This document shows, piece by piece, positions 1 to 19,662 of a stretch of 23,956 bases of DNA. The stretch's first letter is position 1, and every line of letters begins with the position of its first letter. A model generated the notes under the pieces. It was not told where the DNA came from. It saw only the letters and a program-made list of their open reading frames with translations, and did not search any database. Origin of the DNA: a virus. Where the stretch lies: the IMG/VR virus record IMGVR_UViG_3300042354_000024, positions 1 to 23,956 of that record, one strand, 5' to 3'. Made by a program: the position numbers and the translations under genes.

Positions 1-309
1 CGCGACCTTGGCTGTTGGCATTGTGGCACTCAAGGCGATGACCTGATACCTCACCATCGACTCAACCGAGGCATGGGAAGTAAGAATCACCTAGCTAGTC
101 AGTCGAGCAACATCATCCCACTGTGTGCCGAGGCTAACGGCTTGCTAGAGTCAAACGCTGGCTTTGCTGAGCTAGGTCGTAAGCTGGGCTGGAAGCTAAG
201 GAATCATGAAACGCCGACTGAAGTGCCTATCTTTGGGCATGGTGGCTGGTGGCTACTGAATGACGACTTTACAAAAGACTTGCTGGAATCCGACCCTGAG
301 ATGTATTAG
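1..309 (+). CDS. HNH endonuclease, 5'-truncated
   Basis: The frame is open from base 1, so the true start lies outside the window; the ATG at 73 is internal. Before it the frame encodes CWHC (residues 5-8) and then HHR (about residues 18-20), followed by SNIIPLC (about residues 36-42). This is the CxxC, central His-His and Asn layout of small HNH nucleases, where a zinc knuckle supports a beta-beta-alpha metal nuclease fold. The C-terminal part (GWKL, then GGWWLLNDD) is typical of short phage HNH proteins. It probably nicks or cuts DNA, either as a free-standing homing-type nuclease or in phage DNA metabolism. It is followed by a gap with RNA structure rather than an overlapping gene. The family is fairly sure; the biological role is not known. 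Confidence 0.8.
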   Translation, partial: RDLGCWHCGTQGDDLIPHHRLNRGMGSKNHLASQSSNIIPLCAEANGLLESNAGFAELGRKLGWKLRNHETPTEVPIFGHGGWWLLNDDFTKDLLESDPEMY

Positions 310-327
310 GTGATACAGTCCAAGCAA

Positions 328-406
328 GGGGCTGGATTAGACTCGACTATCAGTAAAGCCGATGAGGAATCTGACTAGGACTCGGGTGCAACTCCCGACA
401 GCTCCA
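328..406 (+). ncRNA. Miniature tmRNA-like RNA (tRNA-like domain of ssrA)
   Basis: The 5' end GGGGCTG (328-334) pairs with CAGCTCC (399-405) as a 7-bp acceptor stem with a G-U wobble at the third pair, the alanyl-tRNA synthetase identity signal kept in tmRNA. A406 is the discriminator. TCGAC (343-347) sits about where the conserved UCGAC of the tmRNA D-loop lies. A T-arm follows: stem TCGGG/CCCGA (382-386/394-398) with 7-nt loop TGCAACT. Bases 347-353 and 371-378 pair over 7 bp with one bulge, like tmRNA helix P2, closing a 17-nt loop. The 3' part resembles the tmRNA 3' consensus (GGAC, GGG, T-loop, CCC, CAGCTCCA). Pseudoknots and most of the mRNA-like part are absent: 79 nt against several hundred. 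No normal anticodon arm can be folded. CCA is not encoded directly after A406. It may be a working minimal RNA, or a relic of an ssrA attachment site. Confidence 0.55.
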
Positions 407-456
407 CGCCAGGATACATTTCAGGTGCTAGTGTAAAGACATAACTGAATAAGAAA

Positions 457-483
457 GCCCCCTAGGGTCAAACCCTAGAGGGC
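457..483. terminator. Strong hairpin, possible terminator
   Basis: Bases 457-468 and 472-483 form a 12-position stem with one C/A mismatch and a CAA loop. On the + strand no T-run follows. On the - strand the stem would be followed by TTTCTT (complement of 451-456), so as an intrinsic terminator it fits better in the reverse direction. It lies just after the tmRNA-like RNA and may act as a 3' processing or stability structure. The hairpin is certain; its role is not. Confidence 0.5.
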
Positions 484-6204: not shown

Positions 6205-7339
6205 CTTGGAACCAGCACCAAAAGTAGAAACGCCTAAAGAGTACCGACCTGCCTTTGAGTTTGACGGCAACGAGGGTTGGGCTCAGTTACCAGCAACATC
6301 AGGTGTACCTAGCTTTGATGACTTCCTAACCCAACAGGGCTTTGATCCAGATGAGTTTGAGGTCACCGGCACACCACGCACATCACGCTGGCAACGCTAT
6401 GACGGCGAGTGGCTATCAAGCTATCGCTTTACATTCAGACGCAGGGTTGCAAACCTTGACCTGCCATTGCTTTACTCACAAGCCAAGAAAGCCTACAAGC
6501 CTAAGAAAGACTTCAGAACGACTTCTGAAAAGGCTCTAGTGATTCTTTGGTCTGACTTACAGGTTGGCAAGGTTGACCACCGAGGCGGCATCGAAGCCAT
6601 GATTGCCAGAGTAGAGGAAACAAAAGAAAAGCTAACTGTTCTGCTCAAGCGAGAGAAGCCAGCCAAGGTTATCTTTGTTGACTTAGGTGACACAGTAGAG
6701 GGCTTTGACAATGCAGGTGGCAATCAGCTCCAGAGCAATGACCTAAGCCCGATGCAACAGGTTGACATCGCAACTACCTTAGCTTGGGACCACTTGAAGC
6801 TACTTGCTCAATACAGCAACGACATCACCTACGCATCAGTTGGCTCGAACCATTGCCAATGGCGTGTCAGGGGTAAGCAGCAAGGCACACCAACCGATGA
6901 CTGGGGTATCCACATCGGGCGCACACTTGCAAGGCTGGCAAAAGAAACAGAGATGCCCATCAAGTTTTACGAACCTCAAAAGCATGACGAGTCTTTAGCA
7001 ATAGACATCTTTGACGACCAGTTCCACATACTCGGCATCTGGCATGGACACCAAAGCCCTAGACCAGACCAAGTGCCTACATGGTGGCGACAGCAAGCCT
7101 TTGGTAAGCAACCTGTTGGAGATGCAACCATCGGGGTATCTGGACACTTCCACCATCTCAGAGTCTTAGAGCTTGGCTCAACCTCAAGAGGATCATCGCG
7201 CTTTTGGATTCAGGCAAGCACTATGGACAACGGCTCAGGCTGGTGGAAATTGCGCTCAGGCGAGGACTCGGTGCCAGGCTTAGTGACCTTTGTGCTTGAC
7301 AAGGGCGTTGACTTCACCGGAACTGTTTACAAGCTATGA
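6194..7339 (+). CDS. Calcineurin-like metallophosphoesterase
   Basis: GTG 6194 follows AAGGAAAGAG. The 381-aa protein carries the phosphoesterase metal motifs in order: SDLQVGK (120-126, the usual second-position His replaced by Gln), DLGDTVEG (163-170), GSNHCQW (217-223), WHGHQ (283-287) and GHFHHL (317-322). Residues 1-110 are a phage-specific extension with a region resembling a beta-rich recognition domain (TSRWQRYDGEW). Such two-metal enzymes hydrolyse phosphoester bonds in nucleotides, nucleic acids or proteins; the substrate here is unknown. The Gln version of the first motif is common in phage members. It lies between an HTH gene and DNA methyltransferases, so a DNA-related job is plausible. 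Confidence 0.92.
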   Translation: MLDNLEPAPKVETPKEYRPAFEFDGNEGWAQLPATSGVPSFDDFLTQQGFDPDEFEVTGTPRTSRWQRYDGEWLSSYRFTFRRRVANLDLPLLYSQAKKAYKPKKDFRTTSEKALVILWSDLQVGKVDHRGGIEAMIARVEETKEKLTVLLKREKPAKVIFVDLGDTVEGFDNAGGNQLQSNDLSPMQQVDIATTLAWDHLKLLAQYSNDITYASVGSNHCQWRVRGKQQGTPTDDWGIHIGRTLARLAKETEMPIKFYEPQKHDESLAIDIFDDQFHILGIWHGHQSPRPDQVPTWWRQQAFGKQPVGDATIGVSGHFHHLRVLELGSTSRGSSRFWIQASTMDNGSGWWKLRSGEDSVPGLVTFVLDKGVDFTGTVYKL

Positions 7340-16351: not shown

Positions 16352-16362
16352 AGTTTCTTTAG

Positions 16363-16401
16363 CCCCAGCTCAACCCCCTTTCTGAGCTGGGGTTTTCTTT
16401 T
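16363..16401 (+). terminator. Rho-independent terminator before the capsid gene
   Basis: A perfect 10-bp stem CCCCAGCTCA/TGAGCTGGGG (16363-16372/16383-16392) with a 10-nt loop is followed by TTTTCTTTT (16393-16400) and one further T. It ends the head-protease transcript 12 nt after the last stop and separates it from the capsid gene. Confidence 0.93.
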
Positions 16402-17733: not shown

Positions 17734-18924
17734 ATGCCTACGAATAAAGAGAAACTAAACGGCGCTGTAAGCGTCTGGTCTAATAGCTATAACGCCCCTA
17801 CTGGTTACGGTCAACAGGTCACAATGCTAGTTGACCGACTCAAGCAATCTGGACTTGATGTTGCCATGCTTTCTAACTACGGACTTGAAGGCATCCCTAG
17901 CACAATCAAAACCCCTCATGGTGAAATACCTCATTACCCCAGAGGCTTAGACCAATACTCAAACGACTCTGGGCCACAGGATCACAAGACCTTTATTGCT
18001 GACAAGAATAAGCCAAACCTTTTTATTAGCCTTTACGATGTCTGGGTGATGAAAGCTAAAGCTTACGATGACTTCCCAATCGCCGCTTGGACACCACTTG
18101 ACCATGTGACTTTGCCACCAGGCGTAGAGAAGTTTCTAAAGAAAGAAAATGTCACGCCTATTGCAATGTCACCTCATGGTGTCAGACAGCTAACGGCTAA
18201 AGGCATTGAGTGTGAATACGCGCCTCACGCAATAGACACCAAGACTTACAAGCCAACTTACAAAATAGGCAAACACCCAATCAATGATTACATGGGCATC
18301 ACGCCTGAAACCTTTGTTGTTGGAGTAGTGGCTGCTAACAAAGCATCAGGCCTAGTTCACCGCAAAGCCTATGGCGAGCTAATTCTTGCCTTTAGTATCT
18401 TTGCCAAAGATAAGCCTGACGCGGTGTTGTATCTTCACACTGACTCATTCGGTTTATCAGGTGGCTGGAACTTGCTAAACATCCTTGCATCGCTAGGAGT
18501 AAAAAAGGATCAAGTAATCTTTCCCAACCCACAGGACTATCGCTTTGGTCTAGCCAAGTCTGACCTTGCTGCTCTCTATACAAGGATGGATGTTTTACTA
18601 GCACCTAGCTTGGGTGAAGGCTTTGGCGTTCCTAGCGTTGAAGCTCAGGCTTGTGGCACTAGGGTAATTGGGTCAAACTGGGCAGCAACACCTGACCTAA
18701 TCAGCGATGACTCTTGGCTAACAGATGGACAGCTAACTTGGGATGCCGGTCAAGACGCTTGGTGGATGACACCCAATGTGGGTAGCTTGGTAAATGCCTT
18801 AGAGGAATCTTACAAAGCTGATCGTGGGACATCTCAGGTTGCTATTGACTTTGCTAGCCAGTTTGATGTCGAAAAGGTTTGGTCAGACAACTGGGTTCCA
18901 ATCTTGACAAAGCTACTAAAATAG
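17734..18924 (+). CDS. Glycosyltransferase, GT4-like (GT-B fold)
   Basis: The 396-aa protein has the GT-B architecture. The N-terminal domain has a glycine-rich acceptor loop (NSYNAPTGYGQQV, 17-29). The C-terminal domain has VVGVVAANKASGLVHRK, a nucleotide-sugar-binding start, and the family signature APSLGEGFGVPSVEAQACG (290-308) containing E-x7-E (E295, E303). It transfers an activated sugar with retention of configuration. Phage enzymes of this type next to capsid genes are thought, and in some mycobacteriophages shown, to sugar-coat virion proteins. It follows the capsid terminator by 14 nt. Confidence 0.93.
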   Translation: MPTNKEKLNGAVSVWSNSYNAPTGYGQQVTMLVDRLKQSGLDVAMLSNYGLEGIPSTIKTPHGEIPHYPRGLDQYSNDSGPQDHKTFIADKNKPNLFISLYDVWVMKAKAYDDFPIAAWTPLDHVTLPPGVEKFLKKENVTPIAMSPHGVRQLTAKGIECEYAPHAIDTKTYKPTYKIGKHPINDYMGITPETFVVGVVAANKASGLVHRKAYGELILAFSIFAKDKPDAVLYLHTDSFGLSGGWNLLNILASLGVKKDQVIFPNPQDYRFGLAKSDLAALYTRMDVLLAPSLGEGFGVPSVEAQACGTRVIGSNWAATPDLISDDSWLTDGQLTWDAGQDAWWMTPNVGSLVNALEESYKADRGTSQVAIDFASQFDVEKVWSDNWVPILTKLLK

Positions 18925-18942
18925 ACCTAAACTGACTTTGCA

Positions 18943-19009
18943 CCAAGTCGAGCTGCTACTAGGGAAACCCAGCCGCTTGGAGTGAGTCGGTAAGAGTAGA
19001 AAGGCCGAC
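18943..19009 (+). promoter_or_regulatory. Structured leader covering the ribosome-binding site of the GT2 gene
   Basis: The 90-nt gap between the two glycosyltransferases can fold into two elements. First, CCAAG/CTTGG (18943-18947/18976-18980) with an inner CG.GCTG/CAGC.CG stem separated by single-base bulges, topped by a loop with GGGAAACCC. Second, GTCGG/CCGAC (18986-18990/19005-19009), which encloses the GAAAGG site (18999-19004) of the gene at 19015. No T-run follows the first stem, so it is not a normal terminator. Translational control is an inference; it does not match a riboswitch class known to me. Confidence 0.45.
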
Positions 19010-19014
19010 AACAC

Positions 19015-19662
19015 ATGATTCCAGTATTAGCTTTCCCAACTTACGCAAGGCACGATTTAGCTCAGCGAATGATTGACTCGATTGACTATCCAGTCGAGCA
19101 TTTAGTGATTGTTGACAACTCTGGCAAGCAAGAGTTCAAGCCTGTAAAGCCAGATACTGTAAAGAACCTTTGGCTAATCCCTGTGCCTTTTGGTGTTGGG
19201 CCAGTAGCAGCAATGAACTTTGTAACCAAGGCAACCCCACACGCTAAGTATTGGGTCTTTGCTAGTGAGGATACTTGGTGTGAGCCTGGTGCTTTAGAAA
19301 AGATAGCTAATGAGGTTGACACCGAGGCTTTGAACTTTACTGGTGCTGTTCCTGACTGGGCTTTTGTCGCTATCGGTGAGGGTGTAGTCCTAAAGGCTGG
19401 ACTAGCAAGCGAGCTATTTCACCCTCTTTATTTTGATGACAATGACTATGAGCGAATCATTGACGCACATGGGATACCCAAAAAGCGCATCCATGCCACA
19501 ATTCACCACAACAACAGCTCGACTATTGCTGCTGGCTATGGCCCTAAGAACGCTCGTACCTTTTCAATCAACCAAAGACTTTACGAGGAAAGACGAGCTG
19601 AGAATAACCTCAATGGTGGCGAGTGGTCGCTAAAGATAAGGCGAGAGAACTCTTGGGACTAA
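19015..19662 (+). CDS. Glycosyltransferase, GT2-like (GT-A fold)
   Basis: The 215-aa protein opens with MIPVLAFPTYARHDLAQRMI and LVIVDNSG (30-37), the start of GT-A Rossmann-type enzymes, followed by GVGPVAAMNFVTK (60-72) and VFASEDTWCEPGALEKI (81-97). SED at 84-86 sits where the metal-binding DxD motif normally lies, then comes a late acidic motif FDDNDYERI. It is shorter than typical GT2 enzymes (about 250-300). It probably adds a sugar to a virion protein or works in sequence with the GT4 enzyme upstream. The start has GAAAGG 10 nt upstream inside a possible hairpin. Confidence 0.85.
   Translation: MIPVLAFPTYARHDLAQRMIDSIDYPVEHLVIVDNSGKQEFKPVKPDTVKNLWLIPVPFGVGPVAAMNFVTKATPHAKYWVFASEDTWCEPGALEKIANEVDTEALNFTGAVPDWAFVAIGEGVVLKAGLASELFHPLYFDDNDYERIIDAHGIPKKRIHATIHHNNSSTIAAGYGPKNARTFSINQRLYEERRAENNLNGGEWSLKIRRENSWD

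Follow-up and report, generated by a model that had tools for sequence, protein, structure and literature searches.

The element at positions 328–406 of the window, by which we mean the whole 23,956-nt stretch of viral DNA that was analysed, is the tRNA-like domain (TLD) of a tmRNA without the mRNA-like body. The element (hereafter the mini) and the features that adjoin it are as follows.

1–309, plus strand: HNH endonuclease gene, truncated at its 5' end by the edge of the contig (phrog_740, E 1.5e-18)
328–406, plus strand: mini tmRNA, tRNA-like domain only, mature RNA from G1 to A73 (RF00023, model R1, 18 near relatives)
328–334, plus strand: 5' strand of the acceptor stem, GGGGCUG, with G330 as the G of G3·U70 (7 of 7 pairs; anchored count of 66 representatives)
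343–347, plus strand: UCGAC of a tmRNA-type D-loop, without a D-stem (sequence; RF00023 alignment)
348–353, plus strand: 5' strand of a P2-like helix, UAUCAG, with C347–G378 as a possible extra pair (covaries with 371–377 in 66 sequences)
354–370, plus strand: short linker with an inner hairpin (CC GAUGA GG), replacing the mRNA-like domain of several hundred nt (conserved AAAGCC..GG motif)
371–377, plus strand: 3' strand of the P2-like helix, with C375 bulged (anchored pair count; minimum-energy fold)
382–398, plus strand: T-arm with a 5-bp stem and a UGCAACU loop (100% paired in the family, three covarying pairs)
399–405, plus strand: 3' strand of the acceptor stem, CAGCUCC, with U403 as U70 (anchored pair count)
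406–409, plus strand: discriminator A73, then CGC (sequence)
457–483, plus strand: strong hairpin with a 12-bp stem, a possible transcript end or attenuator (hairpin of altered sequence in most relatives)

Structure and identity of the element

The third acceptor pair is G330–U403, and the 7-bp acceptor stem, the UCGAC motif, the T-arm and the P2-like helix with its single bulge all lie, in the sequence and in the fold, where a preliminary description of this DNA had placed them. The minimum-energy fold of 328–406 is exactly the proposed structure (−25.1 kcal/mol), with a z-score of only −1.4, so that folding energy by itself is no proof. Because A73 is followed by CGC, the CCA end is not encoded and would need adding. 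Where an mRNA-like body would be expected, 26 nt lie between the two halves of the element; no mRNA-like domain with a resume codon, tag frame and stop was found in it, and its fold contains none of the pseudoknots PK1–PK4, for which there is no room.

A search of the window at Rfam gathering thresholds returned nothing, and ARAGORN reported neither a tRNA nor a tmRNA gene in it. At a relaxed threshold the Rfam tmRNA model, which the preliminary description had proposed as a check, matches positions 328–409 (RF00023, 34.9 bits, E 5.3e-12), a score below the Rfam gathering score of 47, with model ends 1 and 374 both matched within one 82-nt stretch. Model R1, a covariance model trained on 12 viruses other than this one, with the element's own family left out, matches the element at 54.4 bits (E 3e-13), and the same minimal feature combination gave 0 matches in 36 Mb of sequence simulated as 1500 copies of the window with a first-order Markov model. 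Together with the covariation reported below, the R1 score and the match to both ends of RF00023 bear out the earlier proposal that this phage carries a minimal tmRNA TLD.

Two other readings of these nucleotides were rejected. The element is not a tRNA gene, as it forms no cloverleaf, its fold has no D-stem and ARAGORN is negative. Positions 354–377 read GCC GAU GAG GAA UCU GAC UAG (ADEESD-stop), which resembles a tag peptide; this frame is lost in relative L005 and shifted in L017.

The window copy is atypical in some respects. Its T-loop is UGCAACU versus the usual UUCGANU and its D-loop is non-consensus, changes that could weaken the contacts with SmpB. In relatives, the P2 'loop' frequently contains a further short hairpin, with the sequence CCGCACGCGG or a covarying variant, and the pairs of this inner hairpin covary across the family (83.5% paired); the window's own version (CC-GAUGA-GG) is degenerate.

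Distribution among viral contigs

A pattern derived from the element matched 18 further virus contigs. In these near relatives the flanks are less conserved than the element, whose helices change on both strands, with UAUCAG/CUGACUA becoming UGCCAG/CUGGCA in L005 and a T-stem C-G pair becoming U-A. A looser pattern, in which the whole 5' acceptor strand and positions 68–70 were free, matched at least 120 stretches; after an acceptor-pairing filter, at least 127 IMG/VR contigs carry a mini, forming about 60 clusters or lineages at 90% identity. Two complete sub-scans yielded 8 and 41 contigs, 3 and 20 of which were already listed, and from them the strict-pattern total is estimated at roughly 250 of 2.9 million contigs; the mini form is thus uncommon yet widely spread. 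Most relatives outside the window's own group score 41–77 bits with RF00023. Among the matches listed, 31 of the 127 viral relatives encode ACCA, and a tRNA gene lies within 500 nt at 19 of the 127 loci, in a few cases only 1–3 nt away.

A separate 69-nt type (GGGGGUG..CACCUCC) was observed at positions 6364–6432 of L021 and in six near-identical contigs. It has a short P2 and no inner hairpin, and is possibly an independent reduction.

Covariation and an invariant G3·U70 pair

As MAFFT alignments A1 and A2 put the acceptor stem in the wrong place, pairs were counted in 66 representatives parsed by fixed anchors and, separately, in a model-based alignment. In the anchored count, seven of seven acceptor pairs are formed in all 66 representatives; acceptor pairs 4–5, T-stem pairs 1–2 and P2 pairs 1–7 each occur as several standard pair types, exchanged in a compensatory manner; and pairing is well above that of shuffles, while a P2 register shifted by one falls to chance level. 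The model-based alignment, with 83 distinct rows, has 95.3% of its cells paired and a covariation score of 0.626, versus 0.129 for shuffled and at most 0.086 for slid alignments, values that are biased towards the structure because this alignment was fitted to it and includes a few tRNA matches, a bias from which the anchored count is free. The compensatory changes that the preliminary description had suggested looking for are therefore present both in near relatives and across the 66 representatives, so that its refuting case of stems that relatives fail to keep did not arise, and the covariation leaves little doubt that these sequences specify a working RNA.

The G3·U70 pair is present in 66 of 66 representatives and the neighbouring pairs vary freely; position 70 and the entire 5' acceptor strand had been left free in the search pattern behind this count. 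The predicted alanine-type design, also proposed earlier, is thereby upheld. Since a pure SmpB sponge would not need alanine, the invariance of this pair suggests that the alanine-charged form matters, on the ribosome, beyond the soaking up of SmpB alone. SmpB titration would work 'whether or not chargeable' (PMC4131195), and the strict retention of G3·U70 is consequently left unexplained by the simplest decoy model.

Minis in cultured phages and cellular genomes

BLAST searches with two of the relatives identified minis in Pontimonas phage phiPsal1 and in the Streptomyces phages LuckySocke, GiJojo, BRock, Shaeky and pSt2308. Those of phiPsal1, LuckySocke, BRock, Shaeky and pSt2308 score 54–65 bits with RF00023 (GiJojo was not rescored), and 0 of these five phage regions carries a tmRNA annotation at the mini. 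The Streptomyces phage minis (L252–L254, L258) lie inside tRNA arrays, in a gap in the annotation, and ARAGORN overlooks them although they are above the RF00023 cut-off. ARAGORN-based annotation hence overlooks a class of phage RNA genes. Cultured Streptomyces and Pontimonas phages bear unannotated minis, and with these isolates a role in ribosome rescue can be tested at once.

By terminase, the nearest isolate to the window is phiPsal1 (55% identity over 98%). Its mini, at L251 3000–3081 (MG835450 5569–5650), lies between the prohead protease and capsid genes. The element therefore changes slots between genomes, occupying the protease/capsid slot in phiPsal1 and an HNH/replication slot in the window. 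The place in the window that corresponds to the phiPsal1 slot is occupied by a small open frame and by a hairpin resembling a terminator (about 16360–16400). Two glycosyltransferase genes (window 17734–19662) lie directly 3' of the capsid gene, an arrangement shared with phiPsal1.

A model search of 395 Actinomycetes genomes gave three matches, all in a phage-like context: one in an integrase-bearing prophage, between the genes for small and large terminase, one adjoining another terminase gene and one adjoining a dNMP kinase gene. A match in an Acidimicrobiaceae MAG lies near a phage portal gene. In cellular genomes, most pattern matches proved to be the 3' terminus of a regular tmRNA (in Vibrio, among others) and were rejected. 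Also set aside as minis were the 3'-half matches in Pseudomonas phage PA_L9 and Rhodobacter phage RcSimone-Hastad, which belong to full tmRNAs of the permuted type. No tmRNA match was obtained in Mycobacterium phages LittleLaf or Predator.

Relation to known tmRNAs

The preliminary description knew of no such phage RNA, a statement that has to be corrected, because a 'TLD only' tmRNA of Mycobacterium phage DS6A has been published (Mao et al. 2009, as related in PMC4131195 and PMC11915505), and, according to the same accounts, a DS6A-like TLD molecule inhibits tmRNA in E. coli. As far as the published description allows the two to be likened, the DS6A RNA is also phage-encoded, joins both tmRNA ends directly and amounts to hardly more than the tRNA-like domain; it differs in being a single phage case in that literature, whereas well over 100 virus contigs are involved here. 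Of the 97,179 sequences in a 2025 tmRNA database, 9 are classed as 'standard, no CDS' (PMC11915505), and these nine may include some of the RefSeq phages named here.

Bacterial tmRNA (ssrA, RF00023) shares with the mini the G3·U70 acceptor, the UCGAC D-loop without a D-stem, P2, GGAC and the T-arm, but the mini has no mRNA-like domain, resume codon, tag, stop or pseudoknots and measures 79 nt versus 300–400. The full-length and permuted tmRNAs of phages such as mycobacteriophages Bxz1 and Wildcat, and Melnitz, are likewise phage-encoded, contain the tRNA-like domain and are often found near tRNA genes; unlike the mini, they retain a tag reading frame (PMC4131195, PMC9004378). The tmRNAs of jakobid mitochondria and Mallomonadaceae plastids also have no coding part and are about 65 nt long in plastids, yet the presumed partner of the jakobid form is nucleus-encoded SmpB and no virus link is known for these organellar RNAs (PMC11915505). 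Measured against the open-access journal literature, the kind of RNA is thus already known from DS6A, and what is new is its breadth, the covariation, the invariant G3·U70, the presence of a full tmRNA and a mini in one phage, and the ARAGORN blind spot.

That phage, a 123-kb genome (record G003), has a mini (65 bits) at a distance of 31 kb from a full tmRNA (94 bits, ARAGORN tag SPEYRIRLLTNTKW), the two loci being L296 487–568 and L295 289–680. This co-occurrence argues that the mini is no mere stand-in for tmRNA.

Proposed function and alternatives

Our preferred reading, which we hold to be somewhat probable, is that the mini would act as an alanine-charged, dominant-negative inhibitor of host ribosome rescue and ssrA tagging. 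Host tRNA maturation enzymes would cut the mini out of a phage transcript, CCA would be added to its 3' end and host AlaRS would charge it with alanine via G3·U70, whereupon EF-Tu and host SmpB would bind it as they do host tmRNA. The mini and host tmRNA would compete for SmpB, AlaRS, EF-Tu and stalled ribosomes, and the mini, once on a stalled ribosome, would block trans-translation instead of finishing it. Lacking a resume codon, a tag frame and a stop codon, it should be unable to complete trans-translation, and it is from this inability that competition and dominant-negative action would follow. The inhibition of tmRNA by a DS6A-like molecule in E. coli provides a precedent (PMC4131195, PMC11915505). 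Phage lambda immP22 is not supported by an E. coli tmRNA whose resume codon has been changed to a stop, a defect comparable to the absence of tmRNA (PMC2862035), and the failure of this resume-codon mutant implies that a TLD that has no coding part would be expected to block rescue (PMC2862035, PMC2481249). Because some phages, lambda immP22 among them, need trans-translation (PMC2862035), the benefit that a phage would draw from inhibiting rescue is not obvious.

The genes that accompany the mini bear on how it would work. SmpB is encoded in 0 of 25 mini-bearing virus records and an RF-1-like factor or peptidyl-tRNA hydrolase (Pth) in 0 of 22, many of these records being fragments, so that host factors would be needed.

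The main rival is tag-less rescue, which we regard as unlikely. Here a charged TLD with SmpB would enter the stalled ribosome and take over the nascent peptide, and drop-off followed by peptidyl-tRNA hydrolysis would free the ribosomes and leave phage proteins untagged. The invariant G3·U70, implying that charging matters, is compatible with such a role, as are the jakobid mitochondrial tmRNAs without a coding part, which co-occur with SmpB and are thought to be helpful (PMC11915505), and the observation that E. coli phages gain from ribosome recycling and not from tagging (PMC2862035). However, lambda immP22 plates with an EOP of 1.3e-5 when the resume codon of E. coli tmRNA is unusable (PMC2862035), resumption and termination on tmRNA are needed for phage growth (PMC2481249), and in the 22 records the mini is unaccompanied by a phage RF-1-like or Pth protein. 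The preliminary description had offered a decoy or a tag-less rescue RNA as alternatives; the pair survives as the natural reading of a TLD without a coding part, while its tag-less half appears less likely than inhibition in view of PMC2862035 and the lack of a phage release factor.

Ranking just behind, and also unlikely, is a role outside trans-translation, in which the RNA would serve as an AlaRS/EF-Tu decoy, as bait for tRNA-cleaving defence enzymes or as RNA-processing punctuation in phage transcripts. Such a role would fit the locations of the minis, which some phages carry within tRNA arrays and others between unrelated genes, but the mini keeps tmRNA-specific traits, namely the missing D-stem and the UCGAC and GGAC that flank P2, for which a generic tRNA mimic would have no use.

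It is highly improbable that the phage simply holds the 3' end of host ssrA as attP. The cores of attP sites do resemble the 3' ends of tRNAs and tmRNAs. Phage integration into tmRNA genes is known, and the integration site of DS6A is a tRNA-Lys gene (PMC10865867). Against an attachment site, both tmRNA ends are present and covary, and the 30-nt 3' part of the element, with up to 3 mismatches allowed, occurs in 0 of 395 Actinomycetes genomes, so the outcome that the preliminary description had named as refuting its proposal, with only the 3' end equal to host ssrA, did not materialise. In addition, no integrase is annotated in the complete circular genome of phiPsal1, whose mini is flanked by protease and capsid genes, and in the L293 prophage about 5.6 kb separate the integrase gene from the mini, which has terminase genes on either side. 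Full tmRNAs are common among phages, but that the mini is the decaying remnant of one that lost its middle is just as improbable given near-perfect stems, compensatory evolution over about 60 lineages and stronger conservation than in the flanks. The attachment-site and remnant readings are already contradicted by the sequences compared here.

Alongside inhibition as the preferred reading, we tentatively put forward a broader framing, to which we give somewhat less credence: that ~80-nt, alanine-charged mini-tmRNAs with an inner hairpin may be a widespread, virus-specific class with which phages of several bacterial groups would gain control of ribosome rescue directly at the ribosome, distinct from host tmRNA, tRNAs and SmpB sponges and found beside a full tmRNA in at least one phage. 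The spread of the mini suggests that ribosome rescue is a regular phage target.

Genomic surroundings in the window

The element is intergenic, beginning 18 nt past the stop of the HNH endonuclease gene and lying upstream of a gene set for replication initiation and DnaB. None of the scanned genes of the window, which is a fragment, encodes an integrase. Weak minus-strand matches to PyrR and trpB motifs, below threshold, fall within positions 457–545. In the same stretch, the hairpin at 457–483 is followed by two mutually exclusive hairpins (CCAACA..UGUUGG and GUUGGCA..UGCCAAC), and most relatives have hairpins of altered sequence in the region matching 457–545, which looks like a terminator or attenuator leader.
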